Source: Bacteriovoracia bacterium
Lineage (GTDB): Bacteria > Bdellovibrionota > Bacteriovoracia > Bacteriovoracales > Bacteriovoracaceae
Direction of reading: 5' to 3'
NCBI GenBank assembly: GCA_030431635.1
Contig: JAUIIL010000008.1
Location: 1-64,000 of the forward strand
Length of the DNA: 64,000 nt
The notes below the pieces were generated by a model, which was not told where the DNA came from, did not search any database, and saw only the letters and a list, made by a program, of their open reading frames with translations. Each line of letters starts with the position of its first letter. The first letter of the stretch is position 1. Shown in pieces: positions 11,198 through 27,661 of this stretch. A program made the position numbers and the translations under genes.

Positions 11198-11614
11198 ATG
11201 TCATCTGAAAATCTTGACGTTTTTTTGCCTGTAGTAATTATGGCCGTAATTGCTGTGGTTATCTATGCTGGAGCAATTATTGCTTCAAAAATTTTATCAA
11301 ACCTAAACCCAACACCTCAAAAGCAAACTGCTTATGAGTGTGGTGAGGAACCTGTTGGGACAGCGTGGTCGCAGTTTAACATAAGGTTTTATGTTGTGGG
11401 ACTTATCTTTATTATTTTTGATGTAGAGTCCGTTCTTATGTTTCCTGTCGCTGCCGTTTTTAAAGAGTTAAATGAAATTGGTCATGGTGGTTATGTCCTT
11501 ATTATCTTTTTAAGTTTTATTTCTGTTTTACTTGAAGGCATTGCTTATTGTTGGAAAAAAGGTGATTTGAATTGGGTTATGAGTTATCAGAAAAACAAGA
11601 GTGGGGTTAAGTAA
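11198..11614 (+). CDS. nuoA: NADH-quinone oxidoreductase subunit A
   Basis: A 138-residue NuoA with three membrane segments. It carries the family's conserved loop YECGEEPVG, the FNIRFYVVGLIFIIFDVE segment, and the acidic DVES in the second helix. It is part of the membrane arm near the quinone site of complex I. It overlaps nuoH by one base (TAATG) and opens the block. The usual next genes nuoB, C, D, E, F, G and I are absent here, so this cluster encodes only membrane-arm subunits. Confidence 0.97.
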   Translation: MSSENLDVFLPVVIMAVIAVVIYAGAIIASKILSNLNPTPQKQTAYECGEEPVGTAWSQFNIRFYVVGLIFIIFDVESVLMFPVAAVFKELNEIGHGGYVLIIFLSFISVLLEGIAYCWKKGDLNWVMSYQKNKSGVK

Positions 11615-12753
11615 TGAATTCAACTGTTGTATCTTTTTTTTCTCAATTTGAATTTTTCAACGATGCCGTAAAATCTCTTAGTGAAACTCTTGGTTTCAAC
11701 ACTTATGCAGCTGTTTCTTTGTTAGTATTCTTGGTGGCCGCAACAGTTCTGACTATTGTTTGCGCTACGATTGGAGGATTGGGAACATATGCTGAAAGGA
11801 AAATTTCAGCTGATATACAAGCAAGAGTTGGGCCAAACAGAGTTGGTCCTTATGGTTTGTTACAACCACTTGCCGATGCTCTGAAACTATTGACTAAAGA
11901 AGATATATTTCCGGCTAACGCAGATAAATTTATGTTTTATCTTGCTCCTTTTCTATGCGTTTTAGGAGTTTTTACAACATTAGCAGTACTTCCTGTTTCA
12001 AGTGGATTAACATTGACTCATCTTAATGTAGGTGTTTTCTATATTATTGCAGTTTCTTCTCTTGTGGGGGTAGGTGTTTTTCTTGGAGGATATGCTTCAA
12101 ATTCAAAGTGGTCGATGCTGGGAGGGATGAGAGGTGCTTCTCAAATTATTAGTTATGAAGTCCCGATTACGATAAGTATTATTGCAATTGTTGTTTTGTC
12201 TGGTGGTATGTCCTTTGAAAAAATAGTGTCTTCACAAGGTGGACTTCCTCATCAGTGGTTTATTTTTCATAACCCTTTTACCTTTATTGGTTTTTTCATC
12301 TTCTTTGTTTCTGGTTTAGCAGAAACAAATAGAGCTCCTTTTGATTTGCCAGAAGCAGAGTCAGAGCTTGTATCTGGGTATCATACAGAATATACAGGGA
12401 TGAGGTTTGCTTTATTCGCTTTAGCAGAGTACGTTGAAATATTTGTTCTTTGTGCAGTAGCTTCAACACTTTTCCTTGGTGGTTATCAACTCCCTCTTCC
12501 TGAAACAATTGTTTCTAAGATGCCCGCAGCTGCTGTTCAGCTTTGGCAAACAGTGATTTTTTTCATTAAGGCTTTGGCTTTATATTATGTCGTCATTTGG
12601 GTGAGATGGACTCTTCCTCGAATTAGGGTTGATAGGTTAATGTCTATTTGTTGGAAGGTTTTAACTCCTTTTGCGATTTTTAATTTAATAGGAGTTTCTA
12701 TTTGGATGGTTGTTTTTAAAGGTGAATCTTTGTTGAAAATAATCTTTCATTAA
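11614..12753 (+). CDS. nuoH: NADH-quinone oxidoreductase subunit H
   Basis: A 379-residue NuoH, the membrane subunit that lines the quinone tunnel. Diagnostic motifs are intact: AERKISADIQARVGPNRVGP (near 65-85), MRGASQIISYEVP, and GLAETNRAPFDLPEAESELV with its acidic residues. There are eight or nine membrane helices. It follows nuoA with a one-base overlap and is 13 bp from nuoJ. Regular complex I gene order would place G and I between H and J; both are missing. Confidence 0.97.
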   Translation: MNSTVVSFFSQFEFFNDAVKSLSETLGFNTYAAVSLLVFLVAATVLTIVCATIGGLGTYAERKISADIQARVGPNRVGPYGLLQPLADALKLLTKEDIFPANADKFMFYLAPFLCVLGVFTTLAVLPVSSGLTLTHLNVGVFYIIAVSSLVGVGVFLGGYASNSKWSMLGGMRGASQIISYEVPITISIIAIVVLSGGMSFEKIVSSQGGLPHQWFIFHNPFTFIGFFIFFVSGLAETNRAPFDLPEAESELVSGYHTEYTGMRFALFALAEYVEIFVLCAVASTLFLGGYQLPLPETIVSKMPAAAVQLWQTVIFFIKALALYYVVIWVRWTLPRIRVDRLMSICWKVLTPFAIFNLIGVSIWMVVFKGESLLKIIFH

Positions 12754-12766
12754 AGAGAAGGTTGCT

Positions 12767-13300
12767 ATGTTTATATGGGTTTTATTTTTAATTTCTGCAC
12801 TACTTATTTTAGGAACATCTGTAGCAGCACTTGTGACTAAAAATATTATGCATTCATGTATCTATTTACTTGGAACTCTTCTAGGGATTTCTGGTTTATA
12901 TATTACATTAAATGCTGATTTTGTAGCCGTAACTCAAATAATGGTTTATGTGGGTGGGATTGTCATTCTGATGCTATTTGCGGTGATGTTAACTGGTGGA
13001 AAAGAATTTGTCAGTAAAGGTCAGCAACTTTTAGGCTTAGCTCCTTTGATGGGAAGTAAATCGACTTATGTTTTTGGACTGTTTGGAGCTTTAGTTTTTG
13101 GAGGTATTTTTGCTAAGTTAATTTCATATATAGTTAAGCTTCCCATTGATTCAACTGAACAGAAAATTCAAAGTACGGTTGAATCAATTGGTAAACTATT
13201 GATAACAGACCATGTTTTAGCATTTGAATTATCCTCTGTTTTACTTTTAGGAGCTTTAGTTGGTTCTGCGATTATCGCTAGACCAAGGAGAGAGAGTTAA
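12767..13300 (+). CDS. nuoJ: NADH-quinone oxidoreductase subunit J
   Basis: A 177-residue NuoJ with five membrane segments. The conserved stretch ADFVAVTQIMVYVGGIVIL and the following LFAVMLTGG mark the pi-bulge helix TM3 that undergoes conformational change in complex I. The C-terminal helix ends LLLGALVGSAIIARPRRES, which is useful below for recognising the divergent copy J'. It is preceded by AGAAGG and followed after 5 bp by nuoK. Confidence 0.95.
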   Translation: MFIWVLFLISALLILGTSVAALVTKNIMHSCIYLLGTLLGISGLYITLNADFVAVTQIMVYVGGIVILMLFAVMLTGGKEFVSKGQQLLGLAPLMGSKSTYVFGLFGALVFGGIFAKLISYIVKLPIDSTEQKIQSTVESIGKLLITDHVLAFELSSVLLLGALVGSAIIARPRRES

Positions 13301-13305
13301 ATATT

Positions 13306-13611
13306 ATGATACCTTATATTGCTTACTTAGGAATTTCTGCTTTTTTATTTATTATTGGTCTTGCTATTATGATGTCCAGAAAAAACATCGTAGCAATATT
13401 GCTTGGTATCGAGTTTATTCTAAATGCAGCGGCTTTAAATTTTGTCACTTATTCTAAATACTCAGCTCATAACCTAGATGGTCACATATTTGCTTTATTT
13501 ATCATTGTTATCGCAGCAGCCGAAGCAGCAGTAGGACTGGCCATTGTTATTAGATATTTTCAATTAAAAGAAACAGTACATATAGATGAGGCTTCTGAGC
13601 TTAGAAATTAA
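13306..13611 (+). CDS. nuoK: NADH-quinone oxidoreductase subunit K
   Basis: A 101-residue NuoK with three membrane helices. Both membrane glutamates needed for proton transfer are present: Glu36 in LLGIEFILNAAALN and Glu73 in IVIAAAEAAVGLAI. It is a normal-length member of the family and lies 5 bp after nuoJ and 12 bp before nuoL. Confidence 0.96.
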   Translation: MIPYIAYLGISAFLFIIGLAIMMSRKNIVAILLGIEFILNAAALNFVTYSKYSAHNLDGHIFALFIIVIAAAEAAVGLAIVIRYFQLKETVHIDEASELRN

Positions 13612-13623
13612 GGTTGTTAAACT

Positions 13624-15801
13624 ATGGAATATACTATCACTTCAATAGCTCCTATTTTTCTTTTTCCATTCACTGCATTTGTTTTGAATGCTTTTTTTGG
13701 AAGAAAACTTCCAAGAGAAGGAGACTGGTTAAGTGTCGGCGCTATTTTCATGTCTTTTGTTTGGGCTTGTAGGATTTTTAGTGATTTTATTTTTGGCAAA
13801 TTTTCAACAGATTATTATGTTCACAAAGTATTTAACTGGATTGATCTCTCTTTTGGAGAGCAAATCTTTAAAATAGATCTGGGTATCTATATAGATAATA
13901 TGACTGCGATTATGCTTTTAATGGTAACAGGGGCAGCGACTTTAATTCATCTTTTTTCAACCTGGTATATGAAAGGAGATGAAGGGGGTTATGGCAGATT
14001 TTTTATCTACCTTTCTCTTTTCACGTCAGCAATGCTTGGGCTTGTTTTGGCTGACAACCTTCTTCTTTTATTTATTTTTTGGGAAATTATGGGGTTTTGT
14101 TCATACTCATTAATTGGTTATTACAACAAAAAAGAAAGAGCTGGTTATGCTTCTATCAAAGCTTTTATGACAACAAGGGTGGGGGATGTTTTTCTTCTAC
14201 TTGGAATTCTTGCAATCTGGTCTGTTGTTGGAAACGTTAACTACGTTGATATTTATTCAGCCATCTCCCAAGGACTTTTTGAAGGTAAGGTGGTTTTAGG
14301 TATTTCTCTAGCAACTTTTGCAGCTTTTTGTGTTTTCATGGGTACAATTGGTAAGTCTGCCCAGTTTCCTCTTCAGGTTTGGCTCCCTGATGCCATGATG
14401 GGTCCAACTCCATGTTCAGCTCTCATTCATGCTGCAACAATGGTTGCTGCGGGGGTTTATCTCTCTTTAAGAATGTATCCTCTAATGCAATTAGGAGATA
14501 TTACTCATTTTATTGCTTATATAGGTGCCATTACTGCGTTTGGAGCTGCTACTATTGCTCTTGTACAAACAGATTTAAAAGCCGTTCTCGCATTTTCTAC
14601 AATTTCTCAACTTGGTTATATGGTCATAGGAATTGGTGTTGGTTCGTATAATGCAGCTTTTATGCACTTAATCACTCATGCTGTCTTTAAGGCTTGTCTT
14701 TTCTTATCTGCTGGTTCAGTTATTCACGCTGTCCATACTCAAGAGATGCCCCAAATGGGCGGGTTGAGAAAAAAACTCCCTATAACCTTTATGTGTATGA
14801 TGCTTTGTACTCTGGCCATCGCAGGCATTCCATTTTTTTCTGGTTTTGTCTCAAAAGATAGGATCTTGGGTGATGCTCTCTATTGGGGATTATTTTCAGG
14901 TCAAAGTAAAGTTCATTTTCTCGTTCCTTTTTTGGGTTTTGCAGGAGCATTCTTAACAGCTTTTTATATGTTCAGAATGATGTTTCTTACTTTTTTTGGG
15001 ACACCGAGGGATCAACATGTTTATGATCATTGCCACAAAGAAACTTTCTCTTTTAATAGAAATCTACCTCTCATAATACTTGCTACTTTTACGCTTGGGA
15101 TTTTCTTTTCTGGTTCTTTAACAGGACAGGGGATTGCGAAAGTTTTTCCTAAAGGTGGGCAGGAGTGGTTTAAAATTTTAGTAGAGGCTCCTCAGGTGAA
15201 AAAATTTGAATCCTACACTAAGGAAGGATTTGGTTTTAGTGATACAAGAGCCGAGAAAAGTTGGGAAAAAGCTCATTATCACCACCAAAGTGGATACGCT
15301 GGTATTAATCCTGAAAATGAAGAAGGAATCCATCATGCTCACGTTGAAGGGGCAATTGCATCTATTATCATTGCTTTTTCAGGTGTTTTTCTCGCTTTTC
15401 TTCTCTACATCAGAAGAACAATATCTCCTGATAAGTTTGTAAACCCTCTGAGATGTTGGTACGAAGCTCTTAGGAGAAAATATTATTTTGATGAACTTTA
15501 TATTGATATTTTTATTAAAAAGGTTTTATTAAAATTCAATGAGTTTCTAGCTTTTGTTGATATGGGAATTTATGATCGATTTGCTATTGATGGATGGGAA
15601 AAAGTGAATAGAGTTCTCTTTAAAGCGAGTAAGTGGTTTGATGATGTTGTTGTGGATAGTATAGCTGTTGATGGAACAGGAACATCTATTAATATTTTTA
15701 ATCTCATTTTAAGAATTGTTCAATCTGGGAAAATCCAGCTTTACTTTTTTATTTTATTATTTGTGCTAGCTGGATATGTTTGGACATTAGATATAGCGTA
15801 A
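13624..15801 (+). CDS. nuoL: NADH-quinone oxidoreductase subunit L
   Basis: A 725-residue NuoL, the distal antiporter-like subunit with the long lateral helix. Key stretches are intact: LLLLFIFWEIMGFCSYSLIG (TM5 glutamate), GKSAQFPLQVWLPDAMMGP (TM7 lysine region), PCSALIHAATMVAAGVY, and KAVLAFSTISQLGYM. A histidine-rich cytosolic insertion (AHYHHQSGY...HHAHVEG, near residue 565) precedes the C-terminal lateral helix. It lies 18 bp upstream of nuoM. Confidence 0.97.
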   Translation: MEYTITSIAPIFLFPFTAFVLNAFFGRKLPREGDWLSVGAIFMSFVWACRIFSDFIFGKFSTDYYVHKVFNWIDLSFGEQIFKIDLGIYIDNMTAIMLLMVTGAATLIHLFSTWYMKGDEGGYGRFFIYLSLFTSAMLGLVLADNLLLLFIFWEIMGFCSYSLIGYYNKKERAGYASIKAFMTTRVGDVFLLLGILAIWSVVGNVNYVDIYSAISQGLFEGKVVLGISLATFAAFCVFMGTIGKSAQFPLQVWLPDAMMGPTPCSALIHAATMVAAGVYLSLRMYPLMQLGDITHFIAYIGAITAFGAATIALVQTDLKAVLAFSTISQLGYMVIGIGVGSYNAAFMHLITHAVFKACLFLSAGSVIHAVHTQEMPQMGGLRKKLPITFMCMMLCTLAIAGIPFFSGFVSKDRILGDALYWGLFSGQSKVHFLVPFLGFAGAFLTAFYMFRMMFLTFFGTPRDQHVYDHCHKETFSFNRNLPLIILATFTLGIFFSGSLTGQGIAKVFPKGGQEWFKILVEAPQVKKFESYTKEGFGFSDTRAEKSWEKAHYHHQSGYAGINPENEEGIHHAHVEGAIASIIIAFSGVFLAFLLYIRRTISPDKFVNPLRCWYEALRRKYYFDELYIDIFIKKVLLKFNEFLAFVDMGIYDRFAIDGWEKVNRVLFKASKWFDDVVVDSIAVDGTGTSINIFNLILRIVQSGKIQLYFFILLFVLAGYVWTLDIA

Positions 15802-15819
15802 TTTTTTAAGGAGATAATA

Positions 15820-17346
15820 GTGAGTGGCTTATTAAACTGGATTCTTTGGTTACCCGTTATTGGAATGATAGCAATTCTTTTCGTTCCAAAGGATAAAAAA
15901 GATTTGATTAGAACGTTTGGAGTTGTTACGACATCAATAACATTTCTTTTAACCCTTGTGCTTTACGCAAAGTTCAACACTTCAATAGGTGGAATGCAGC
16001 CAGAGTTTTTAATTAAAGTTCCATGGATTGAGCAATTTAATATTTTTTACTCACTTGGAGTTGATGGAATTTCTTTACCAATGGTTGTTTTAACAGGACT
16101 CCTTTTCCTTATTTGTACAGTGAGTTCTTGGAGTGTTGATAAGCAAGTTAAGTCTTATTACGTACTTCTTTTGATGCTGCAATCTTCGGTTTTTGGAGTC
16201 TTTTTTGCCCTCGATTTTTTCCTTTTCTATGTTTATTGGGAAGTTATGCTTCTTCCAATGTTTTTTCTTATTGGAATTTGGGGAGGAGAAAACAGAGAGT
16301 ATGCAGCGATCAAGTTCTTTCTCTATACTTTTTTTGGATCAATTATCATGCTTGTTGGGATTATCGCCTTATATTATGCCACTGGAAAAGGCGTTGACTC
16401 CTTTAATATTCTTGCTCTTCAAGGTGGACATTTTACAAAAGAGGTTGTGACTTTATTTGGGACAGAATTCTCATTTGAAAAACTTTTCTTTTGGGCCATG
16501 TTCTTAGGGTTTGCTATTAAAGTGCCAGTTTTTCCTTTCCATACTTGGCTCCCACATGCTCACGTTCAAGCCCCTACAGCGGTATCTGTTATTCTAGCGG
16601 GTGTCTTGTTAAAAATGGGAACATACGGTTTTTTAAGAATTGCTTTCCCTATTTTTCCAATGGCTTCTGTTGAATACTCAACGGTCATTGCAGTCCTGGG
16701 TTGTATCTCTGTTCTTTACGGAGCATTTTGTGCGATGGCCCAAAGTGATGTCAAAAAACTCGTTGCCTATTCTTCAGTCTCTCACATGGGATTTGTTATG
16801 ATGGGGATGGCAGCTATGACTGTTCAGGGAATGAATGGAGCAGTTCTTCAAATGTTTAACCATGGAACATCAACAGCAATGATGTTTCTTATGATTGGTG
16901 TGATTTACGAAAGATCTCACCACAGATGGATCGTTAAGCCTGATGGAAGTAAAGGGTATGGTGGTCTTTATTCTCATATGCCAAAATACTCTATTATTTT
17001 CATTATAGGTATGTTTGCTTCTCTTGGTTTACCAGGTCTTTCAGGTTTTATTTCAGAAGCTCTTATTTTTCTTGGAATCTTTAATCGGTTTACAACAATT
17101 ACCGTTTTTGCCGTTCTTGGTCTTCTGCTTGGTGCTGCTTACTTATTATGGATGTTTAAAAGAATGTTTTTTGGAGAGGCTTCTGCTGAGGTGAAATCAT
17201 ATCCAGATATGAGCATTAGAGAAGTTGGTTATATGATTCCACTTTGTGTTGCCGTTATCGTTTTTGGAATTTACCCATCTCCAATTTTAAATGTTATGAA
17301 AGCATCAGTTGCTCAACTATTAGATTTATTGGGTAAATTTAGCTAA
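15820..17346 (+). CDS. nuoM: NADH-quinone oxidoreductase subunit M
   Basis: A 508-residue NuoM, a proton-pumping antiporter-like subunit. Glu141 (YVYWEVMLLPMFFL) matches the essential TM5 glutamate of E. coli NuoM. The KVPVFPFHTWLPHAHVQAP and DVKKLVAYSSVSHMGFV segments carry the TM7 and TM8/9 signatures. The start is GTG, with GGAG six bases upstream. It is followed after 9 bp by nuoN. Confidence 0.97.
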   Translation: MSGLLNWILWLPVIGMIAILFVPKDKKDLIRTFGVVTTSITFLLTLVLYAKFNTSIGGMQPEFLIKVPWIEQFNIFYSLGVDGISLPMVVLTGLLFLICTVSSWSVDKQVKSYYVLLLMLQSSVFGVFFALDFFLFYVYWEVMLLPMFFLIGIWGGENREYAAIKFFLYTFFGSIIMLVGIIALYYATGKGVDSFNILALQGGHFTKEVVTLFGTEFSFEKLFFWAMFLGFAIKVPVFPFHTWLPHAHVQAPTAVSVILAGVLLKMGTYGFLRIAFPIFPMASVEYSTVIAVLGCISVLYGAFCAMAQSDVKKLVAYSSVSHMGFVMMGMAAMTVQGMNGAVLQMFNHGTSTAMMFLMIGVIYERSHHRWIVKPDGSKGYGGLYSHMPKYSIIFIIGMFASLGLPGLSGFISEALIFLGIFNRFTTITVFAVLGLLLGAAYLLWMFKRMFFGEASAEVKSYPDMSIREVGYMIPLCVAVIVFGIYPSPILNVMKASVAQLLDLLGKFS

Positions 17347-17355
17347 GGGAAAAAA

Positions 17356-18825
17356 ATGATATTAAACCTACTTACTAATTTAAGTTACTATATTCCTGAA
17401 ATTGTTTCTATCGTAACAATGTGTGCTCTGCTTTTTCTTGAGGCAAGTTATAAGGCCAGTGAAAAAAGTAGAACAATGGTTTTTGTTGCTTCATTAATTG
17501 GTTTAGTAGTCGTTTTATTTTCTTTAATTTCTAATATGTCACTCGAGCCTGTCTCTCTTTTTGCAAGCGCTGTCGTTGTAGATAAATTTAGCACTCTCAC
17601 TAAAATTCTTATGACTTTAGGAACTTTAGGTGTCGTATATCTAAGTTATAAATCTAAGGATATTTATACAGGATTAAAATCGGAATTTCTTATTATGGCC
17701 ATGGGTGTTCTTGTAGGTGGAATGCTTCTAAGTTCTGCTAATAATTTGTTAACAGTCTATCTAGGAATAGAGACTCTTTCTATTCTTTCCTATGTAATGA
17801 GTTCATTTAAACGACATGAATCCAGTTCTACTGAAGCAGGTATGAAGTATGCTCTTTATGGCGGAATTTCTGCTGGTATCATGCTTTTTGGAATGAGTCA
17901 CATCTATGGTGTTTTAGGAACGATTCAATTTAGTGAGATGGTTCCTTTATTAAAGGAATTAACAGGAGCTAATTTAGCGGTCATGCTTATTTCCTTTGTT
18001 CTCTTTTTTGTTGGGGTTGGGTATAAGATTGCTTGTTTCCCTTTTCATATGTGGTCACCTGATGTTTACCAAGGTTCCCCACTTCCTGTCACAACATTCT
18101 TTGCCTTAGTACCAAAATTTGCGGGACTTGCAGTTCTCGTAAGGATTAGTTTTGTTTTCTTTTCAAATGAAGGAGCACTCCAAATAGGTTGGATTGGTCT
18201 TATTCAAGTTGTTGCTGCTTTAACAATGACTGTTGGAAATGTTACGGCCATTGGACAAGATTCACTGAAAAGACTTTTGGCTTTTTCTTCAATAGGTCAT
18301 GTTGGAATGATGCTACTTGGGGTTGTTGCTGTGAGCGAGTCAACTACTCGTATTATTCTTTTTTATTCAATTGCATATTTATTTATGACTCTAGTTGTAT
18401 TCTATGTCGTTTCAACGATATCGGATAAATACGGAACAGACTCACATTCAGTTATAAAAGGGCTTATCTATAGACATCCCCTGATGGCCATAGTTATGAG
18501 TATTGCGTTGTTTTCTTTGGCAGGACTTCCTCCTTTTAGTGGATTTGTAGCAAAGTTTAATATGCTCTCTGCTGTTATTGAATCTAAGTATTATGCTCTT
18601 GCGTTTGTGGCTGCTATCAATTCTGTCATTTCTCTTTATTACTATATGAGAATTATTAAAATGATGATTGTAGAACAACCTGAGACAAACGAGAAAATTG
18701 AAACGTTCAATTTTATAAACCAGGCTCTAATAACTGTTTATGCGATTCCTGTGCTGTTTTTGGGAATATTTTGGGAAAAAATAATGCTTATTTCCGATGG
18801 GGCCAAAATTTTTATAGTGCCATAG
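17356..18825 (+). CDS. nuoN: NADH-quinone oxidoreductase subunit N
   Basis: A 489-residue NuoN. The proton-path residues expected in the family are visible: Glu139 (TVYLGIETLSILSYV), Lys224 (VGYKIACFPFHMWSPDVY) and Lys254 (ALVPKFAGLAVL). SLKRLLAFSSIGHVG and LAGLPPFSGFVAKF follow. It is the last canonical nuo gene. Only 15 bp separate its stop from the ATG of the first divergent copy, A', so both sets probably share a transcript. Confidence 0.97.
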   Translation: MILNLLTNLSYYIPEIVSIVTMCALLFLEASYKASEKSRTMVFVASLIGLVVVLFSLISNMSLEPVSLFASAVVVDKFSTLTKILMTLGTLGVVYLSYKSKDIYTGLKSEFLIMAMGVLVGGMLLSSANNLLTVYLGIETLSILSYVMSSFKRHESSSTEAGMKYALYGGISAGIMLFGMSHIYGVLGTIQFSEMVPLLKELTGANLAVMLISFVLFFVGVGYKIACFPFHMWSPDVYQGSPLPVTTFFALVPKFAGLAVLVRISFVFFSNEGALQIGWIGLIQVVAALTMTVGNVTAIGQDSLKRLLAFSSIGHVGMMLLGVVAVSESTTRIILFYSIAYLFMTLVVFYVVSTISDKYGTDSHSVIKGLIYRHPLMAIVMSIALFSLAGLPPFSGFVAKFNMLSAVIESKYYALAFVAAINSVISLYYYMRIIKMMIVEQPETNEKIETFNFINQALITVYAIPVLFLGIFWEKIMLISDGAKIFIVP

Positions 18826-18840
18826 ACGGCATTTTCTTTG

Positions 18841-19110
18841 ATGATTCATACTTCTCTATATAGTTTTATTTATATTTCTAGCTTTGTCAGTTTATGTGGA
18901 GCTATCTTCCTTCTTTTATCTAAAGAAGAAGCAAGGCTTAAAAAATATCAAAATGATGAAAATGAAAAACAAGATTATCCAATCAAAGGCTTTTTCAGTC
19001 TATTTTTGTTGTATGGCATTGTAAATATGGATGTATCTGTTCAAAAATCTGTTTTGCCATTTTTTTTAATAATTTTATTAATTGAACAGTTAAATAAAGA
19101 ATATGATTGA
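18841..19110 (+). CDS. A': small membrane protein, putative highly divergent NuoA copy
   Basis: An 89-residue protein with two or three hydrophobic segments. By eye it follows NuoA: a first helix (YISSFVSLCGAIFLLL), a charged loop, then FLLYGIVNMDVSVQKSVLPFF beside NuoA's GLIFIIFDVESVLMFPV. The ECGEEP loop is missing, so the quinone-site function is probably lost. I prefer the ATG at 18841 over the TTG one codon earlier; neither has a strong ribosome site. It overlaps H' by 8 bp. Homology is inferred from pattern plus its position first in a seven-gene array that repeats the nuo order. Taken alone it would only be 'small membrane protein'. Confidence 0.5.
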   Translation: MIHTSLYSFIYISSFVSLCGAIFLLLSKEEARLKKYQNDENEKQDYPIKGFFSLFLLYGIVNMDVSVQKSVLPFFLIILLIEQLNKEYD

Positions 19111-19966
19111 AATATACCGTCCATCTATTGGATTTGCTTTTTTTATTGTGTTTTATATTGCGAATAATTTTTTATTCGCTTATTCCCCATCTCTTTTGTT
19201 TAAAAAATTTACTTTCATTCGTTTAATTAAAGGAGTTTTATACTTATCACCTAACATGCTTTTCGGTGATAAGTACTTTTACCGCATATGGAGTAAACAA
19301 CAAAAAATAGCTTATTTTTTTTGCTTTTTTCTAAGCTCTCTTATTTGTTTTTCAGTTGTCATTGATCCTCTTAATTCTCACATTGATCATAACATTATAC
19401 TATTTTTTTATTTTATTTTAATATTTACTTGTCTTCATTTTTCAAATCTAAACAAAACACAATGTTTTAAAACAATTTTCCAAACAGTTTTTTTTATTTT
19501 TGTTCTTAAACTTTTTTTCAAATTTGAAGAAAAAAGTAATTTTAGTCAAATTTACTTATTAGGTCTAGATGACTTTTTTTTAAACGGATATTATCTTTTA
19601 ACATTTTTGGCATTTATTTCCCTTTGTAGACTATCTGTGCTCACTTATATTGATAAGCAAAAAGGACTGAATTTTAGTTTTTTACTTGTTTTTTCATCAA
19701 TAACATTATTTGTAGGCACTTTTATAAACGCAGGCGGAAATGCTTTTATTCTAAAAAAAATGGCATTGGGAATGAATCATATTTCTTTTGAAGTAGAACT
19801 GTTGTTAACTCTTGTTAAATATTTGCTTGTTAGTTTTTTCATCACACTAATAAAATCCGGTAATTTAAAAGTTTCTTATAGTAGTAATCAAAATCATTAT
19901 CTCAAAGACATGATGATGGTTTCAATATTAATTATTGCGGTGTTATTTTATAATGAATACTATTGA
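19103..19966 (+). CDS. H': polytopic membrane protein, putative highly divergent NuoH copy
   Basis: A 287-residue protein with about eight membrane segments, noticeably AT-rich. The best match to NuoH is C-terminal. TLFVGTFINAGGNAF stands beside NuoH TLFLGGYQ, and LTLVKYLLVSFFITLIKSG beside TVIFFIKALALYYVVIWVR. The RIWSKQQKIAYFF region matches NuoH around DKFMFYLAPF. The AERKISADIQARVGPNR and ETNRAPFDLPE signatures are gone, so a working quinone site is unlikely. It overlaps A' (8 bp) and J' (14 bp), which indicates translational coupling. Confidence 0.6.
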   Translation: MIEIYRPSIGFAFFIVFYIANNFLFAYSPSLLFKKFTFIRLIKGVLYLSPNMLFGDKYFYRIWSKQQKIAYFFCFFLSSLICFSVVIDPLNSHIDHNIILFFYFILIFTCLHFSNLNKTQCFKTIFQTVFFIFVLKLFFKFEEKSNFSQIYLLGLDDFFLNGYYLLTFLAFISLCRLSVLTYIDKQKGLNFSFLLVFSSITLFVGTFINAGGNAFILKKMALGMNHISFEVELLLTLVKYLLVSFFITLIKSGNLKVSYSSNQNHYLKDMMMVSILIIAVLFYNEYY

Positions 19967-20360
19967 TTTTTTATTGCTCTTGACGTTTGTTTATTGCCTG
20001 TTATTTTTATTGAAAATTAACATTAATAAATTTATTTCTTTAGTTCTTAGTTCTCTTTATATCATCTTTCTTAATTTAAAAGGGCTTGACAACCAAACAA
20101 GTTTATTTTTTTTGATAGGGCTAATTGTTATAACTTTTACTGAAAGAGAGTATGAAAAAATTGAAAAGAACAACGTGGAGCATATGGGGTTCATAATAGC
20201 TATTTGGGGATTGTTTTTTACCTTTAGCTATTTATTTTTAAACAACTACAATAATGAAGTTCATTTTGTCCTTAACGAGACAGAAAACTATTCAGCAGAC
20301 TTTGAGATATATTCTCTCGTTGTGTTACTTTTATTGGGTAAAAGGAGACCTAGTGTTTGA
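19953..20360 (+). CDS. J': membrane protein, putative highly divergent NuoJ copy
   Basis: A 135-residue protein with four or five hydrophobic segments. Its end, DFEIYSLVVLLLLGKRRPS, parallels the NuoJ end AFELSSVLLLGALVG...RPRRES, and the N-terminal helices align in order. The glycine-rich VYVGGIVILMLFAVML pi-bulge helix of NuoJ is not conserved (FFLIGLIVITFTERE instead). I use the ATG at 19953, which overlaps the H' stop, rather than an upstream start. It overlaps K' by 8 bp. Confidence 0.55.
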   Translation: MNTIDFLLLLTFVYCLLFLLKININKFISLVLSSLYIIFLNLKGLDNQTSLFFLIGLIVITFTEREYEKIEKNNVEHMGFIIAIWGLFFTFSYLFLNNYNNEVHFVLNETENYSADFEIYSLVVLLLLGKRRPSV

Positions 20361-20595
20361 CTCCAATTTAGATTTTATTTTTTTAAAAATTGTTCTCATT
20401 TTGTTATTTTTAATAATGCCAATATTTTTTTTAAAAAGAAAAGAGAATATCTATTTCATGACACAGTTATTAGCATTAATTATTTTTGGAGAAATTGCAC
20501 TTCATATTCAAACAATTTCATTAAAGATAATTGTAGTGATATCTTTTTTGATTTTTTTAAAACTATGCAGAATGCATTTAAAGGATGAAACTTAA
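20353..20595 (+). CDS. K': 80-residue membrane protein, putative highly divergent NuoK copy
   Basis: The start is GTG at 20353, chosen because AAAGGAG lies five bases upstream and it overlaps the J' stop; an ATG at 20254 would run through J'. The sequence tracks NuoK along its length. FFLKRKENIYFMTQLLALIIF stands beside NuoK IMMSRKNIVAILLGIEFIL, and the two ends are alike (MHLKDET beside FQLKETV). The membrane glutamates corresponding to Glu36 and Glu73 of NuoK are absent. If it is a NuoK relative, it has lost the proton-relay residues. Confidence 0.55.
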   Translation: MFDSNLDFIFLKIVLILLFLIMPIFFLKRKENIYFMTQLLALIIFGEIALHIQTISLKIIVVISFLIFLKLCRMHLKDET

Positions 20596-22082
20596 TGCTA
20601 TCGCTTTTAGTAATTGGGCCAATACTGGTTTTTTTCTTAACCTCTAAGGATAGAAGGCCTGTTGGAGATAACTATAAAAACGTCTTAACTTTGTTTGGTG
20701 TTTCATTACTTTTTCTATTAACATTTTTTGTTGGCAAGGAAACAGTAAGTTTTTCAACATTTTTCAATATTGGGCAAAACCTTCAAACTGAAATCAATTT
20801 CGAGGCAGGCAAGGAAACATTTTTCCTTGCCTCTTTTTTTCTTTTTTATTTTAATATCTATAACATTGAGCAAAGAAAGAGTTTTTTACAATATTTAATA
20901 TTTTTATTAATAATAATGTCTAAAACTTTTTTTGGCTTTTTTTCATTACTTTTTCTAAGTCTGAGACTTATTAAATTAAAGGATAAAAATAAAATAAATG
21001 TTTTTTTAATTTTTCTAATAGCTTGTTCAGCTCTCCTTGCTGTTTTATATCAAGTAACTTATTTTGAAAATGCACAGTTTCTGAATGATTATTCTATAAA
21101 CTTCTTTTTCTTCTCTTTTGTTTTGCTTATCTCTTTCTGGATCAATCTATCTGTTTTTGAGTTTTTAACGATTTCTATTATACTAATAAAACTAAACGCT
21201 CTACCTCAAAGCGATCTCGAAATTAATTTTCTAAATTTTTATATGGCCATTATTCTTTTAAAGACATTTTTTCTTTTTAAAGAAAAACCCTATTCTAATC
21301 TCAAATTAAAAATTTTTGAAAGTTTTTGGATTATATTTACAGTCAATTTTATTTATTCAAAATCATTAGTATCATATTTTGTTTCGCATCTTTGTTTGTC
21401 ATTAATTTATTTGTCTCTTGACTGGTATGAGAGTTACGAAGTCAAAAATAAAAAAGAGTTAATGAAAAAAAATGTTGTGCAAGTTGATATGTCATTTCCG
21501 TATCTAAATGTTGTTTTAGTCTTTTGCATTGTCTATTTGATTGCCTATACGTTTTGCTCTGATGGATATTCTCCTTTTTTTTATAGCCAAATAAGTATTG
21601 CGATTGGATTGGTAAGTACTTTTTTAATTTTAGTTTTTAAGTTGTTTTCACTTTCAATGAAAGAAGTTGATTTTAACAAATATGACAGAAGCTCGATAAT
21701 GAATTTCATTTCAATTCTTTTATCTTTTATTGTTCTCAATGTTTATTTTTTCAAAAATACTCAAACATTCAAACTTGATGATTTTTTCGTAACTTTTTTC
21801 TCGTTGGGAATAATGTCCTATTTGATGCTTTTTTTAAAAAATAAAAACATGAAGCTAGTTTTTTTATCAAGAAGAAGTTTTTTTGAATTGAGTAATAGAT
21901 CTCCCAAAATAAGAACAAACTTTATTTCTATAAAAATAAAAAGCTGGAATTTTGAAAAAATCGTAGCTGCCCTATACTTTTTTTTAAAACTTGATGAAAA
22001 AAGATCAGAGTTTGCTGTTTTTTCTCTTATGTCTGTTTTTTTGATCTTTATTATTCTCTTTATCATGAGAGGAACAGTATGA
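20595..22082 (+). CDS. L': polytopic membrane protein, putative highly divergent NuoL copy
   Basis: A 495-residue protein with roughly 13-15 membrane segments, shorter than NuoL (725). The N-terminal part can be laid on NuoL (IGPILVFFLTSKDRRPVGD beside IAPIFLFPF...GRKLPREGD). A long hydrophilic segment before one last C-terminal helix resembles NuoL's lateral-helix arrangement. The TM5 glutamate and TM7 lysine motifs cannot be found. It starts one base inside the K' stop (TAATG) and overlaps M' by 4 bp (ATGA). It is T-rich with long T runs. Confidence 0.5.
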   Translation: MLSLLVIGPILVFFLTSKDRRPVGDNYKNVLTLFGVSLLFLLTFFVGKETVSFSTFFNIGQNLQTEINFEAGKETFFLASFFLFYFNIYNIEQRKSFLQYLIFLLIIMSKTFFGFFSLLFLSLRLIKLKDKNKINVFLIFLIACSALLAVLYQVTYFENAQFLNDYSINFFFFSFVLLISFWINLSVFEFLTISIILIKLNALPQSDLEINFLNFYMAIILLKTFFLFKEKPYSNLKLKIFESFWIIFTVNFIYSKSLVSYFVSHLCLSLIYLSLDWYESYEVKNKKELMKKNVVQVDMSFPYLNVVLVFCIVYLIAYTFCSDGYSPFFYSQISIAIGLVSTFLILVFKLFSLSMKEVDFNKYDRSSIMNFISILLSFIVLNVYFFKNTQTFKLDDFFVTFFSLGIMSYLMLFLKNKNMKLVFLSRRSFFELSNRSPKIRTNFISIKIKSWNFEKIVAALYFFLKLDEKRSEFAVFSLMSVFLIFIILFIMRGTV

Positions 22083-23326
22083 TTGAATTTAACTTGTTAA
22101 TTTTTTATTTTTTATTATCTTTTGCGTTGATATTTGTTTTTTCAAAAATTAAGTATATAAATATGCTTTTTATTTTAGGTTTCGGAGTAGATATATTTCT
22201 AAAACTCAACAAAATAGATAGTTATTCAAGTTTCGAAATGATATTTTTTTTAACACTCTATTTTTTGACATCTATCTTTTATATTAATGTGAATAACAAC
22301 CAAAAAGAAAAAAAGATAAATCTATTCTCTATTGCTCTTGGATTTTCTCTTTTGAGAAGCTTGTTGTTTTTTGATGCATTTATTTGGAAGTTTCTTGCGC
22401 TTGAAGGGTTGATAGGCGTTTTGTTTTTTTATGATTTAAAAAATATAAAGAATGATCCCACATCACTTTCCAAGAGATTAAACTTGATATTGGCTGGTTA
22501 TGTTTTAATATCCTCCTTTTTTATTATTGGCTTTCAATCAGGAATTAATTTAACAAGCAACTTTTCTTTTTTTGTTCAAAAAGCTATTGATAAAAATGAG
22601 TTTTATTCGATGATTGTTATTTTTATATTTATACTCTATTTATTTTTTAGAACACTTTTTTTATCAAACTTGGCCAGAAAAAAGAATTTGATTTCTCAAA
22701 ATGAATATATCTGTTTATTTTTATCATATTTTTTAATACCAATGGCCTTCTTTGATATACTAAAGGATTTAAATCTTTCAGTTCAGGGCGAAGCTGGAAT
22801 TGAAAACAATGTATTGTTAGTGTTTTTTTTAGTAAGCTTTTTTTATTTGGTAGAAAAAATCAACTACTATTCTTCTATGAAGTTTGTCGTATTGATTTCT
22901 TCTGTCGTATTAATGTTTTCCGGTCTGAATAGTGCTTCAAATGTTTTAGTTTTATTCTTTATAATGTTTTTTTATAATTGGTGTTATCTTTTTTCTTTAC
23001 AAGTAAAAGAAGAGCAAGAAAAAAATGGTTTTCAAAAATTTTTTGATGGCTATTTAAACGAGTGTTCTCAAATAACCCCTTTTACAGCAACATTCACCTC
23101 TTTTATTCTTTTTTTTGGTTTTTATGCTAATAACGGGGCAGGACTTATTTGTAGTCTGTTTTTTTGCTTTTTAATGGTAAAAGGAAAAAAAGATGCTGCC
23201 CCTTTAGAGTTTGAAGGTGATATATTAATAAAACCAACTGATAAAGTGGTTTATTTTATAGCGATGTTAATTCTTTTCTTTTTAGGGTTAATGCCTTTTT
23301 TTATATCGAAAAAGGTGTTGTTATGA
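22079..23326 (+). CDS. M': polytopic membrane protein, putative highly divergent NuoM copy
   Basis: A 415-residue protein with about 12 membrane segments. This is the clearest of the divergent large copies. FFDAFIWKFLALEGLIGVLFF lies on NuoM FALDFFLFYVYWEVMLLPMFF and keeps the TM5 glutamate (Glu109 beside Glu141). SKRLNLILAGYVLISSFF follows like NuoM's IKFFLYTFFGSIIMLVG. The end (ILIKPTDKVVYFIAML...LGLMPFF) matches NuoM's (MSIREVGYMIPL...FGIYPSP). It overlaps both neighbours by 4 bp. Confidence 0.6.
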   Translation: MIEFNLLIFYFLLSFALIFVFSKIKYINMLFILGFGVDIFLKLNKIDSYSSFEMIFFLTLYFLTSIFYINVNNNQKEKKINLFSIALGFSLLRSLLFFDAFIWKFLALEGLIGVLFFYDLKNIKNDPTSLSKRLNLILAGYVLISSFFIIGFQSGINLTSNFSFFVQKAIDKNEFYSMIVIFIFILYLFFRTLFLSNLARKKNLISQNEYICLFLSYFLIPMAFFDILKDLNLSVQGEAGIENNVLLVFFLVSFFYLVEKINYYSSMKFVVLISSVVLMFSGLNSASNVLVLFFIMFFYNWCYLFSLQVKEEQEKNGFQKFFDGYLNECSQITPFTATFTSFILFFGFYANNGAGLICSLFFCFLMVKGKKDAAPLEFEGDILIKPTDKVVYFIAMLILFFLGLMPFFISKKVLL

Positions 23327-24597
23327 TTGATAACTTTTTAATGTTTTTTTTCTTAACAATTTGTGCATCACTTTTTTTCAATAGGTGGATGAGTGTTAAA
23401 GTTTCAAAAATTGCACACATTATACTCGTTTGTATTTTAATCATATTTTTTCAACATAAAGGGTTTTTACTAGGAAACAGTAACAATACTGTTTTTTTCA
23501 AAGCAACAGCCATTTTATCAATTCTTTTTTTTATGAGTTCGGAAAGATTGGACTCAAGAGAAATAACGATAGTAACACTGCTGCCTTTTATTTTTTCTAA
23601 AACCTTCCTTAATAGCAACATACTTTTCATCAATTTAATTTTTTTTCTAATGTCTTTTCTTTCAGTTTCTTCTGATAAGAACAAAATTTTTTATCAAAGC
23701 AAAAAGGAAATTGTTTTTTATTTTCTTTGGCTTGGATTTCTTTTTTCTTATCTTTTTTCCACACAAAGTATTTATGTAAATACCCCTCTAGTTGTTAACG
23801 AGGGGCTTTATATTTTTTCATTCTCTTTCTTGTTAGCACTTCTTGTTACCATGAATGGATTCTTATTTTTCCCTTTGTTTTCTAAAGAGTTAAACCTTCT
23901 AGATGTAAAAGGAATAGCATGGGAGTTAATGTTTTATTTTTTCTTTAAAAACATTATGATTATTAAAATCTTTATTCTCATGAAGTCAAACGTAGATGAA
24001 AACATAATTAACTCAACTAAAAATATTTCTTATATACTTTTCATATCAAGCTTTATATATCATCTCATTCGAACAGTTTCTGTAAAGAAAATAGATTCAA
24101 CAATTTCTTCTGTTATAAGCATAATTCTAAACATAACAGTTTTATATGTTATTCACTTTGATAAGGTTTTAAACTTTATAATATCACAGATTTTTTTGAC
24201 ACTCGTTTCTTTAATAGCAATTAAGCTAGTACAAGATAATTATGATAATAAAAACCTTGTGTTAGAGAAAAACTTTAAAGGTCTTTTTTATATTGATAAA
24301 ACATCAACTGTTGTTCTCATTATTGCTCTTCTTAGTTTTTTAAATTTTCCTGGAGTAAGTACTTTTTTTGAGCTCTACAATTACCTTTCAAAAACAAGTT
24401 CAATCGATTTTAGCTACCTTGATACTTTATTATATTTCAGTCCCATTATCGTTCTAGTATTTGTCTACCAAATCTTTTTTGGCCCTTTTTATAAAAATGA
24501 TCAGGTTAACACTATTTTTTATAGTAAAATGGACATTGAAAAAAAGGTTTTATCTGGTTTTATATGTTTTATCTTACTTTTATACTCATTTATTTAA
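23323..24597 (+). CDS. N': polytopic membrane protein, putative highly divergent NuoN copy
   Basis: A 424-residue protein with about 12 membrane segments. FFPLFSKELNLLDVKGIAW stands where NuoN has CFPFHMWSPDVYQGS, and FYFFFKNIMIIKIFI follows like NuoN ALVPKFAGLAVLVRI. Lys209 therefore matches the TM8 lysine (Lys254). SFLNFPGVSTFFELYNYLS matches NuoN SLAGLPPFSGFVAKFNMLS. The TM5 glutamate and TM7 lysine are missing. It is the last gene of the seven-gene array and lies 13 bp before the TPR gene. Confidence 0.6.
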   Translation: MIDNFLMFFFLTICASLFFNRWMSVKVSKIAHIILVCILIIFFQHKGFLLGNSNNTVFFKATAILSILFFMSSERLDSREITIVTLLPFIFSKTFLNSNILFINLIFFLMSFLSVSSDKNKIFYQSKKEIVFYFLWLGFLFSYLFSTQSIYVNTPLVVNEGLYIFSFSFLLALLVTMNGFLFFPLFSKELNLLDVKGIAWELMFYFFFKNIMIIKIFILMKSNVDENIINSTKNISYILFISSFIYHLIRTVSVKKIDSTISSVISIILNITVLYVIHFDKVLNFIISQIFLTLVSLIAIKLVQDNYDNKNLVLEKNFKGLFYIDKTSTVVLIIALLSFLNFPGVSTFFELYNYLSKTSSIDFSYLDTLLYFSPIIVLVFVYQIFFGPFYKNDQVNTIFYSKMDIEKKVLSGFICFILLLYSFI

Positions 24598-24610: not shown

Positions 24611-27600
24611 ATGATTAAGTATAGGGTTAAATTGAAATCATCAAGAATTATCGGTCCCATACTTCGTCCTCAAATTTTTGAATTGGCGCAAAAGGGTTAT
24701 ATAGATGAAGATGATTTATATCAAGAATTTCCGGCAGGAGACTGGAAAAAGATCTCAGAAATATTAGATCTTTCATCAATTAAAGACGAAGCAACCTTTG
24801 TAAAAAAAATTGAGAGTGATTTTAAAGAAAACAAAGAGAAGTATATTGATCCTTCATTTCCTCAAGAGTTTTCTTTTAAAAGAGAAGAGACGAGTGAAGA
24901 GGATATAGATAAGGAGAAAGTTGAAAATAAAGCTGATATAAAAGAAGAAGCAAGTAAACCTGTGGAAGAGCTCGATAAAACAGTTGTCACAAATAAAAAA
25001 GAATTGGAATCAATTGATAAAACAATTGTTAATCCTAAAGCACAGGATTTTTTTAAAAAACTTGAAGAAGAAAAAAAAGATGAAGTAATAAAAAAAGAGA
25101 TAGAGCAACGTGTTGATTATGAAAATGATAAAACACAATTAGCCGATATAAACGAACTAAAACAAGAAATTATAAAAAAAGCAAAAGAGAACGAACTTGG
25201 GCTTAAAAATGAAGAAGATGTTTTAAACACAAAGTCCACTGAAGCACTATCAGAAGAAATACCAGTAAATGAGAATAAAAAAAGGAAGAGCAAGAATTTG
25301 ATATATTTTTTGCTCATAGTCTTGTTAGGTTTAATTTTTCTTGATGAAGAAAAAAGCGAAAAAAAAGATATTGCTTTAAAGCCTTATTATCCTGATATTA
25401 AATTTCCCGTAGAGTTTGAAAACCCAGACAAAGAAAAGGGGCGGTTTTATTTTGAAAAAGGAAAAAATGAATACCTAAAAGGATATCAGTTCGAATTTAA
25501 AATTAATGCTCTTGCACTCTTTTTAAAGTCGCTTGAAAACGATTTTGAGAACAAAGATGCTATGTCCTATTACATAATGACTGCTTCAGAACTTCTTATT
25601 CATGCCAAAGATATCCACTCAGCTGGTAGCAAGCTCTTTAAGTTAATAGAAATTTCGCGCTCTCATTTATATTCAAATGTTAACTTAGTCACTGGAGCAG
25701 CGTATTTTTATAAGAACATTGATAAATGTGATGCTGCAATTAATTTGATTGAAAAATATATAACAATAGAAAACCCTTCTTTGAAACTTTTTTCGATTTT
25801 CTTGCATTGCCTTATTAAAGAGGGTGACTTCTCCCGAGCGCGGCGTGTTTACGACAAATTAACACAATCACGGCCAAAGCCAATAGAAGTTTATGTTGAA
25901 TTATTATCATTTGATTTTTTAAATGATGAGTATGCAAAAATTGAAAAGGTTCTTACAGAAGCCTTCAAAGATTATCCTTTATCTCCTAAATTGTTTTTTT
26001 ATAAGGCAAAACTGGATACTTATAGAGAGGATAAAGCTGAACTACTCAAGACACTAAAGAGTCTTAAGAGTTTGTTGAAGGTAAGCCCTGCGATGACTCT
26101 TTCACGTTATTATGAGTATGAAGGACTTTATTATGCTCTTGAGAAGCAAAACAAAAAAGCAGTGGAGAGCTTTCAGTATGCATTACAACTATATGACTCA
26201 CCGGAGTTAAGAGCAAGACTTGCAACACTTGAAACTACGCAAGCAGACTTTCAAGAAGTAACGAATGCTCTTATTTTAGAAAGTAAATCAATAGATTTCA
26301 TGAATAAAGCCAAAGCTGCTTTAGAAAAAAGCAATCTTGACACGGCTTTAAACTTCGCTATAAACGCTGTTGATATATCACCTAATTATTCACCTGCTCA
26401 AATTCTTCTCTCTCAAATTCAAGTGAAAAAAGGTTTTTTTGAACTTGCTATAAAATCTCTGGAAGAAAATGTAAAAAAACATCCTGTTGATCCCTCGTCT
26501 AATTTTGCTTTGTTGGATGCTTATACAAAGGCTTTTAAATTTAATAAAGCAAGAAATCATATTGCGGCTATTTCAAATACAAAGCTAAAAGAATCATCTT
26601 CTTATGCAAAGAAGCTTGCAGATTTTTTTTATGCTTCAAAAGATTATCTTCAGGCCATAAGCTGGTATACAAAAGCAATTGACTTAGAACCTTTAGATGA
26701 TCTTAACTATTACAAACTAAGTCAGATCTTTTTTTATAAAAAAGATTTTAAGAAATCAAAATCAGTTTTAAGAAGAGCTATTGATTTAAACCCAAGCGAA
26801 ACTAGCTATCGCCTGTTATTTTCAAAAAATATCTATGAAATGGAAAGTTCTGAAGCCGCTCTTGGATATTTACGTTCGCTTTCTCAAAAAAATCAAGATT
26901 CCCCTGAAATTCAAGGGCAAATAGCCATCTATTATTTTAGAAGTGGACAGTTAACAAAATTTGAAGCTCAAAAGAAAAAATTAGAGGCTTCGACCAACAA
27001 AACAGAAAGACTTTATGAGTTCCTCATTCAAGCCTCACTTATTGACGAAAAATTTGACCAAGTAGTTGAATATGGGAAAAAACTTTTAGCAATAAACCCA
27101 GGAAATCTGGAAACAAGAATGCTTCTGGGGAGAATTTTGTTTGAGCAATCAAAATTTAAGGAATCATTAGAAGAGTTTAAAGAAGTTAAACTTAGGCTCC
27201 CAACTTACCCCAAACTTCTCTACTATATAAGCAAAATTTATCTTCTGACTGGCGACGTTGATAAGGCTATTGAGATTGCCAACAAAGAATTAAAATCAAA
27301 CCCAAACCTGGAAAGTACTTATATTCTTTTGGGTGATATCTATAGAGAGCAAGACAAGTTTACTAAAGCCCAGGAATATTATAAAGAAGCTCAAAAAAAG
27401 AACCCTAATTCAGCAGAAGCCCTTTTAGGTTTGGCCTTTATTTCCTCAAAGAAAAATCAATATGAAGTGGCGTTGGATTTATATAAAAAAGCTGCATCTA
27501 TAGATATTGAAAACCCTCGAATTCACAAGTATATAGGTGATACATATAGAAACTTAGGACAGGGTAAGCTTGCAATAGAATCCTATAAAGTTTATCTTGA

Positions 27601-27661
27601 GCTAGCTCCAGAGTCTAAGTATAGAAAAGAGATTGAAAACTATATTAAGATTTTACAATAA
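24611..27661 (+). CDS. Single-pass membrane TPR protein with GYF-like N-terminal domain
   Basis: 1016 residues. The N-terminal 55 residues resemble a GYF_2-type domain (GPILRPQIFELAQKGYI...GDWKKISEI). A highly charged linker to about residue 228 holds three look-alike motifs, DKTVV (122), DKTIV (136) and DKTQL (173), which resemble FHA-type phosphothreonine targets. A single membrane helix spans about 230-244. After it, residues 260-1016 form many tetratricopeptide repeats. Predicted: N-terminus in the cytoplasm, TPR scaffold in the periplasm. It lies between N' and serS with 13 and 11 bp gaps. A partnership with the A'-N' membrane proteins is possible but unproven. Confidence 0.75.
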   Translation: MIKYRVKLKSSRIIGPILRPQIFELAQKGYIDEDDLYQEFPAGDWKKISEILDLSSIKDEATFVKKIESDFKENKEKYIDPSFPQEFSFKREETSEEDIDKEKVENKADIKEEASKPVEELDKTVVTNKKELESIDKTIVNPKAQDFFKKLEEEKKDEVIKKEIEQRVDYENDKTQLADINELKQEIIKKAKENELGLKNEEDVLNTKSTEALSEEIPVNENKKRKSKNLIYFLLIVLLGLIFLDEEKSEKKDIALKPYYPDIKFPVEFENPDKEKGRFYFEKGKNEYLKGYQFEFKINALALFLKSLENDFENKDAMSYYIMTASELLIHAKDIHSAGSKLFKLIEISRSHLYSNVNLVTGAAYFYKNIDKCDAAINLIEKYITIENPSLKLFSIFLHCLIKEGDFSRARRVYDKLTQSRPKPIEVYVELLSFDFLNDEYAKIEKVLTEAFKDYPLSPKLFFYKAKLDTYREDKAELLKTLKSLKSLLKVSPAMTLSRYYEYEGLYYALEKQNKKAVESFQYALQLYDSPELRARLATLETTQADFQEVTNALILESKSIDFMNKAKAALEKSNLDTALNFAINAVDISPNYSPAQILLSQIQVKKGFFELAIKSLEENVKKHPVDPSSNFALLDAYTKAFKFNKARNHIAAISNTKLKESSSYAKKLADFFYASKDYLQAISWYTKAIDLEPLDDLNYYKLSQIFFYKKDFKKSKSVLRRAIDLNPSETSYRLLFSKNIYEMESSEAALGYLRSLSQKNQDSPEIQGQIAIYYFRSGQLTKFEAQKKKLEASTNKTERLYEFLIQASLIDEKFDQVVEYGKKLLAINPGNLETRMLLGRILFEQSKFKESLEEFKEVKLRLPTYPKLLYYISKIYLLTGDVDKAIEIANKELKSNPNLESTYILLGDIYREQDKFTKAQEYYKEAQKKNPNSAEALLGLAFISSKKNQYEVALDLYKKAASIDIENPRIHKYIGDTYRNLGQGKLAIESYKVYLELAPESKYRKEIENYIKILQ

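Follow-up and report, generated by a model that had tools for sequence, protein, structure and literature searches.

The first 64,000 nucleotides of contig JAUIIL010000008.1 (assembly GCA_030431635.1, a Bacteriovoracia bacterium of the family Bacteriovoracaceae), hereafter the window, carry a canonical nuoA-H-J-K-L-M-N cluster (set 1) encoding the membrane arm of a respiratory complex I (NDH-1), referred to as complex I-1. Directly behind it lies a second run of seven overlapping frames, A', H', J', K', L', M' and N' (set 2), which is the subject of this study. A' starts 15 nt behind the end of nuoN, and successive frames overlap by 8, 14, 8, 1, 4 and 4 nt. The initial annotation of the window had read these frames as a second, highly diverged complex I membrane arm that repeats the first gene for gene; all seven are present at the sizes it gave (Table 1), and the comparisons across the family described below make it close to certain that they are a second nuoA-H-J-K-L-M-N, that is, complex I by descent. 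In the following, G000 denotes the window genome, and copies of set 2 are called intact where they resemble ordinary NDH-1 and degenerate where they resemble the window copy.

Searched against Pfam and NCBIfam, none of the seven window products exceeds the cut-off of any family, and pairwise blastp of A'-N' against the other degenerate copies, the nearest relative included, gives zero matches. Direct resemblance is confined to N', which in a protein search of relatives is the only one of the seven products to match its own Nuo counterpart, NuoN itself (E 3e-6 to 7e-3, query residues ~253-393). The decisive evidence, in our judgement, is synteny combined with graded intermediates across Bacteriovoracaceae. 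In the inspected genomes of the family, the slot that runs from nuoN (or mfd) to a TPR gene is occupied by the seven genes in unchanged order, reduced to a five-gene remnant (in a single genus) or empty, and in ~40 other, degenerate genomes it carries seven genes of window-like size and topology, bearing out the gene-for-gene arrangement in relatives as well. Plain second copies of A-H-J-K-L-M-N follow nuoN in G014, G020, G027 and G030 (the contigs of G027 and G030 hold only A-H-J-K of set 2) and in other families of the phylum; those of G014 give matches of 3e-15 (A), 2e-73 (H), 2e-11 (J), 4e-10 (K), 2e-88 (L), 1e-94 (M) and 2e-31 (N). Graded intermediates occur at all seven positions, in G032, G134, G135, G075 and G061 and in G021, G036 and G017. 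For L, similarity to intact NuoL2 falls from 6e-60 in G021 through 1e-18 in G061 to 1e-8 in G134, and for M, similarity to intact NuoM2 falls from 1e-69 in G036 and 3e-62 in G021 to 5e-9 in G061 and 1e-8 in G034. Against NCBIfam, the G021 copies of H, L and M are matched to NuoH (3.6e-31), NDH_I_L (6e-38) and NDH_I_M (3e-47), respectively.

Degenerate-family profiles were also compared with profiles of the intact set 2 subunits. A, H, J, K and N each find their own subunit as the best match (E values in Table 1), and the off-diagonal values are mostly ~0.1-1, the exceptions being the homologous L/M/N and the pairs K'-J (0.004) and N'-J (0.011). L' and M' give no significant match to intact set 2 in this comparison. 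Iterated hidden Markov models (HMMs) picked up roughly half of the degenerate copies and, among the window proteins, just N', through a chain of NuoN2 HMMs. The AlphaFold2 model of L', computed from a degenerate-only alignment, has a confidence (pLDDT) of 53 and no meaningful match in the PDB; that of M' (pLDDT 61), whose alignment included intact rows and which is therefore not independent, has MrpD as its top PDB match (probability 0.89, E 1.5). Since neither profiles nor structure models settled L' and M', these two rest on position and intermediates. More broadly, window A', H', J', K', L' and M' are assigned by position and family evidence, with no direct sequence match.

The initial annotation described set 2 as a membrane arm, which is incomplete, as set 2 has a peripheral arm of its own. 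G000 has two peripheral loci, nuoB1-C1-D1-I1, which belongs to complex I-1, and lipoprotein-B'-CD'-I', which belongs to set 2. CD' (547 aa) is a clear NuoC-NuoD fusion (PF00346 1e-77, PF00329 1e-27), and B' (144 aa) is a weak NuoB match (PF01058 7e-4, under the family cut-off). G014 and G030 have an intact membrane set 2, and their second locus reads lipoprotein-B2-CD2-E-F-G-I2 and includes a complete NADH module; G005 (L155) and G026 (L154) carry degenerate NuoE/F/G-like genes there, and in most other degenerate genomes the locus is reduced to B'-CD'-I'. In other families of the phylum, NuoC, E and F sit within set 2, between A2 and H2. A ~500-aa lipoprotein-like gene with no Pfam match precedes B2 or B' in nearly all genomes with a second peripheral locus, intact or degenerate (L147-L163 and L276-L287 included). 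The complete NADH module of G014 and G030, together with NuoC, E and F inside set 2 elsewhere, shows that set 2 descends from a standard NADH:quinone oxidoreductase with B2, CD2, E, F, G, I2 and the lipoprotein gene, and the degenerate NuoF/NuoG-like genes of G026 and G005 represent an intermediate step in the loss of its NADH module.

Table 1. Genes of set 2, their neighbours in the window and the peripheral loci of the window genome (E values are for family profiles unless otherwise specified).
Feature	Location	Strand	Remarks
A' (degenerate NuoA2)	18841..19110	+	89 aa; position 1/7; best to NuoA2, E 7.5e-4
H' (degenerate NuoH2)	19103..19966	+	287 aa; 8 predicted transmembrane helices; to NuoH2, E 8e-28
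J' (degenerate NuoJ2)	19953..20360	+	135 aa; to NuoJ2, E 1.6e-5
K' (degenerate NuoK2)	20353..20595	+	80 aa; GTG start; 3 predicted transmembrane helices; to NuoK2, E 3e-5
L' (degenerate NuoL2)	20595..22082	+	495 aa; position and intermediates
M' (degenerate NuoM2)	22079..23326	+	415 aa; position and intermediates
N' (degenerate NuoN2)	23323..24597	+	424 aa; direct NuoN matches; NuoN2 HMM chain; E 4e-13
Set 1, canonical nuoA-H-J-K-L-M-N (complex I-1 membrane arm)	11198..18825	+	all seven above Pfam cut-off; directly upstream of A'
TPR protein	24611..27661	+	1016 aa; 13 nt behind N'; syntenic marker
nuoB1-C1-D1-I1 (peripheral genes of complex I-1)	G000:C2 ~410-413 kb; L146 7090-9849		full Pfam scores
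lipoprotein-B'-CD'-I' (peripheral genes of set 2)	G000:C2 ~158-162 kb; L145		
Lipoprotein gene before B'	L145 5474-6880		~500 aa; lipoprotein-like, no Pfam match
I'	L145 8938-9249		103 aa; identified by position only

Several features accompany the two loci of set 2. The TPR gene stands behind set 2 in most genomes inspected and is still present where set 2 has been lost, and is thus not specific to set 2. Within the L' coding region, positions 20807-20832 form a strong hairpin resembling an intrinsic terminator, with an 11 bp stem and a T-rich tail, which might attenuate the genes downstream. In L145 upstream of position 5474, as in many genomes, the peripheral operon is immediately preceded by an opposite-strand tRNA gene and a motif resembling TGTCAATT; the full 13-base motif CTGTCAATTRAAA is exact in three loci only. 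What had looked like a peptide start recurring close to the lipoprotein gene proved to be an opposite-strand tRNA.

The degenerate copies have lost the motifs of catalysis and ion translocation. The NuoH motif GPNRVGPxG is present in 22/22 intact and 0/47 degenerate copies, and PRxRxD likewise in 0/47 degenerate ones; WLPxAM of NuoL is found in 18/19 intact versus 0/45 degenerate copies, PxHxWLPxAH of NuoM in 18/19 versus 0/42, and FDxE of NuoA in 20/22 versus 1/48. The quinone-site motif GPxHPxxH of NuoD is absent from each degenerate CD' inspected, and NuoF (PF01512) has no match anywhere in the window genome, which leaves set 2 short of a NuoE/F/G module. Complex I-1, the working enzyme of the window organism, also comprises just B, C, D and I plus A, H, J, K, L, M and N. 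Charged residues per transmembrane (TM) helix fall in A and K from 0.65-0.70 in intact copies to means of 0.18 and 0.20 across the degenerate set, although K' of the window, unlike this average, retains two; in the L/M/N helices their density is similar in degenerate copies. Loss of the iron-sulfur (Fe-S) ligands is later than the other motif losses and patchy; the window species marks the extreme of the degeneration series. Window B' lacks the CC pair that ligates cluster N2, and window I' lacks both CxxCxxCxxxC motifs for [4Fe-4S] clusters; in G000 and G034 the NuoB/NuoI ligands are all gone, I' retaining just a CxxC...CxxC pair. This pair of the window genome resembles a zinc ribbon, as it does in G034 and G016. 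In G002, G007, G021, G022, G036, G065 and others, the cysteines of NuoB are retained, as are the two cluster motifs of NuoI. Set 2, complex I by descent, thus falls outside the definition of complex I as an enzyme.

The distribution of Na+-NQR, scored by PF05896, parallels these losses. Na+-NQR is present in the window genome (G000:C2:143866) and has been noted in Bacteriovorax marinus (PMC4014512); none was found in 22 searched genomes of other families. Among the family genomes on the tree, it occurs in 0/15 of those with a catalytic set 2 versus 46/60 of the others (Fisher p 3e-8), and 58 of these 60 have either Na+-NQR or a third complete complex I operon, the third-operon calls for several genomes of genus g24 being NuoF matches rather than operon-by-operon inspection. 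An apparent exception, G063, has an intact NuoF next to a CD gene, but the two proved to be part of a complete third complex I that is distinct from a degenerate locus in the same genome. G020 has Na+-NQR and no EFG, and its other subunits are intact except for the CD quinone motif; it looks like a transition state toward a degenerate set 2. In the NuoN1 tree, genera with intact set 2 are interspersed among degenerate ones (moderate support, long branches), so that, if lost motifs cannot return, degeneration occurred at least two times.

Despite these losses, set 2 has kept its frames. No broken frame was seen among the set 2 genes of the degenerate genomes, ~40 of which carry seven open frames, whereas in simulations with random substitution as the sole process, 0.35 hits per site left 0-7% of genes uninterrupted. 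A, H, J and K have the same median numbers of TM helices (3, 8, 5 and 3) in intact and degenerate copies; L, M and N have two to four fewer in the latter. Peripheral set 2 genes are ~60-83% identical where N1 is 88-92%. In the pair G002/G070 (NuoN1 92% identity), lipoprotein, B, CD and I are 65-80% identical (CD' 73%), A/H/J/K 64-67% and L/M/N 34-44%. The ratio of nonsynonymous to synonymous rates (dN/dS) is 0.03-0.1 in congeneric pairs of intact copies, like NuoN1, and ~0.1-0.5 in most close pairs of degenerate ones. Moreover, complex I-1 is missing from G009, G021 and G036 (NuoN1 is absent and there is a single NuoD-type gene), yet all three keep set 2, beside mfd, and its peripheral locus. 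Outright losses also occur. Genus g5 has the five-gene remnant, with M', N' and most of L' gone and A'-K' retained; in g32 and G067 both membrane arm 2 and the second peripheral locus are lost; and in g24 the membrane arm is gone after nuoN, the inspected genomes G023 (L160), G160 (L371) and G143 (L378) keeping lipoprotein-B'-CD'-I', which suggests that the soluble part may have a separate role. Set 2 is thus dispensable in some lineages, but its intactness elsewhere is unlike the expectation for neutral decay.

Taken together, we consider it fairly probable that set 2 is a retained non-catalytic complex, a redox-dead and pump-dead complex I with a structural or regulatory role. The ancestor was a full NADH complex I with the membrane genes A2-N2 at the present locus and B2, CD2, E, F, G, I2 and the lipoprotein gene elsewhere. 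Na+-NQR, or a third complex I, would then have taken over NADH oxidation, removing selection for set 2 catalysis and allowing NuoEFG and the quinone-site and channel motifs to be lost. The remaining products would still be translated and assembled, the complex being held mainly by CD', B', I' and the lipoprotein, less by A', H', J' and K' and least by L', M' and N', and would be kept for a role at the membrane other than electron or proton transfer. We put at even odds the more specific proposal of a "pseudo-complex I", an assembled membrane scaffold, redox-dead and pump-dead, that has acquired a new role and is retained for the sake of its architecture, its chemistry having been lost repeatedly and in parallel.

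Several observations weigh against this interpretation. Because many relatives keep the Fe-S ligands of B' and I', the term redox-dead would apply to the window species and its nearest relative and not to the whole family. The Na+-NQR association is phylogenetically clustered and comprises just 1-4 independent contrasts, almost all of which point the predicted way. dS is saturated, which makes dN/dS rough, and some L'/M' pairs approach 0.6-1. The median length of L falls steadily from 657 to 484 and that of M from 494 to 335, and several lineages (g24, g32 and G067) no longer have the membrane arm at all. The shortening and these losses keep alive the alternative that set 2 is a relic in slow decay, functionless since its replacement by Na+-NQR, its frames still open because disrupted membrane proteins do harm or simply because the genes disappear slowly. 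Such decay would also fit the early loss of the catalytic motifs, dN/dS values several-fold above those of intact copies, and the independence of the full losses and the g5 remnant. It fits poorly with seven open frames in ~40 genomes under substitution-only drift, with the identity of the peripheral genes and with the survival of set 2 after deletion of complex I-1. Given this survival, the open frames and the constant A/H/J/K helix counts, set 2 is probably not simply dying, and we regard slow decay as possible but unlikely.

The other alternatives fare worse. The direct tandem of the two sets, 15 nt apart, could suggest that set 2 is a dead partner of complex I-1, two membrane arms from one operon forming a 1:1 heterodimer or supercomplex, and the initial annotation had likewise proposed an accessory domain on complex I. 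As a sole role, both are excluded by G009, G021 and G036, which keep set 2 and its peripheral locus in the absence of complex I-1; conversely, complex I-1 persists in g24 and g32 in the absence of membrane arm 2. We therefore consider partnership very improbable. Least probable of all is a repurposed ion channel, antiporter or transporter, the remaining suggestion of the initial annotation (as a redox-uncoupled ion channel or specialised antiporter), which the antiporter-like ancestry of L', M' and N' and the charged residues of their helices would favor but which is at odds with the absence of channel motifs from H and from all degenerate L and M copies, the loss of most A/K helix acids across the family, the rapid change and shrinkage of L/M/N, their near-complete removal in g5 and a conservation that favors the peripheral side.

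In comparison with known systems, set 2 is a direct descendant of complex I/NDH-1 (14 core subunits, NuoA-N), with the same seven membrane subunits in order and B, CD and I elsewhere, and the family's intact orthologues are NDH-1 complexes of the ordinary kind. It differs in lacking NuoE/F/G, the NuoCD quinone motif, the NuoH loop motifs and the antiporter motifs; the window species lacks the NuoB N2 and NuoI N6 ligands as well, and its set 2 membrane subunits have no significant library match. The 11-subunit type of complex I (cyanobacterial NDH-1, Fpo-like, and here complex I-1) is likewise devoid of NuoEFG, but complex I-1 retains catalytic motifs and strong Pfam scores, whereas set 2 does not. 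Mrp antiporters and complex I variants with an extra NuoM exemplify redox-free use, or expansion, of NuoL/M/N-like proteins. Mrp (gene set MrpA-G) keeps its antiporter motifs; set 2, in contrast, has lost them, shows no PF00361 match in the window and still has its A, H, J and K subunits together with a peripheral arm. Na+-NQR, the proposed functional replacement of set 2, is an enzyme unrelated to complex I. No description of a degenerate second complex I was found in the open-access literature searched.

Single pseudoenzymes are common. If our interpretation is correct, a ten-gene respiratory complex that loses its chemistry with its genes intact and in order across more than 20 genera would be very unusual. 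The family spans a graded series from working enzyme through shell to complete loss, which lays open the order in which a large machine sheds its parts. Cultured members (Halobacteriovorax) make the reason for the retention of set 2 testable, and genomes may hold respiratory complexes that are invisible to sequence annotation.

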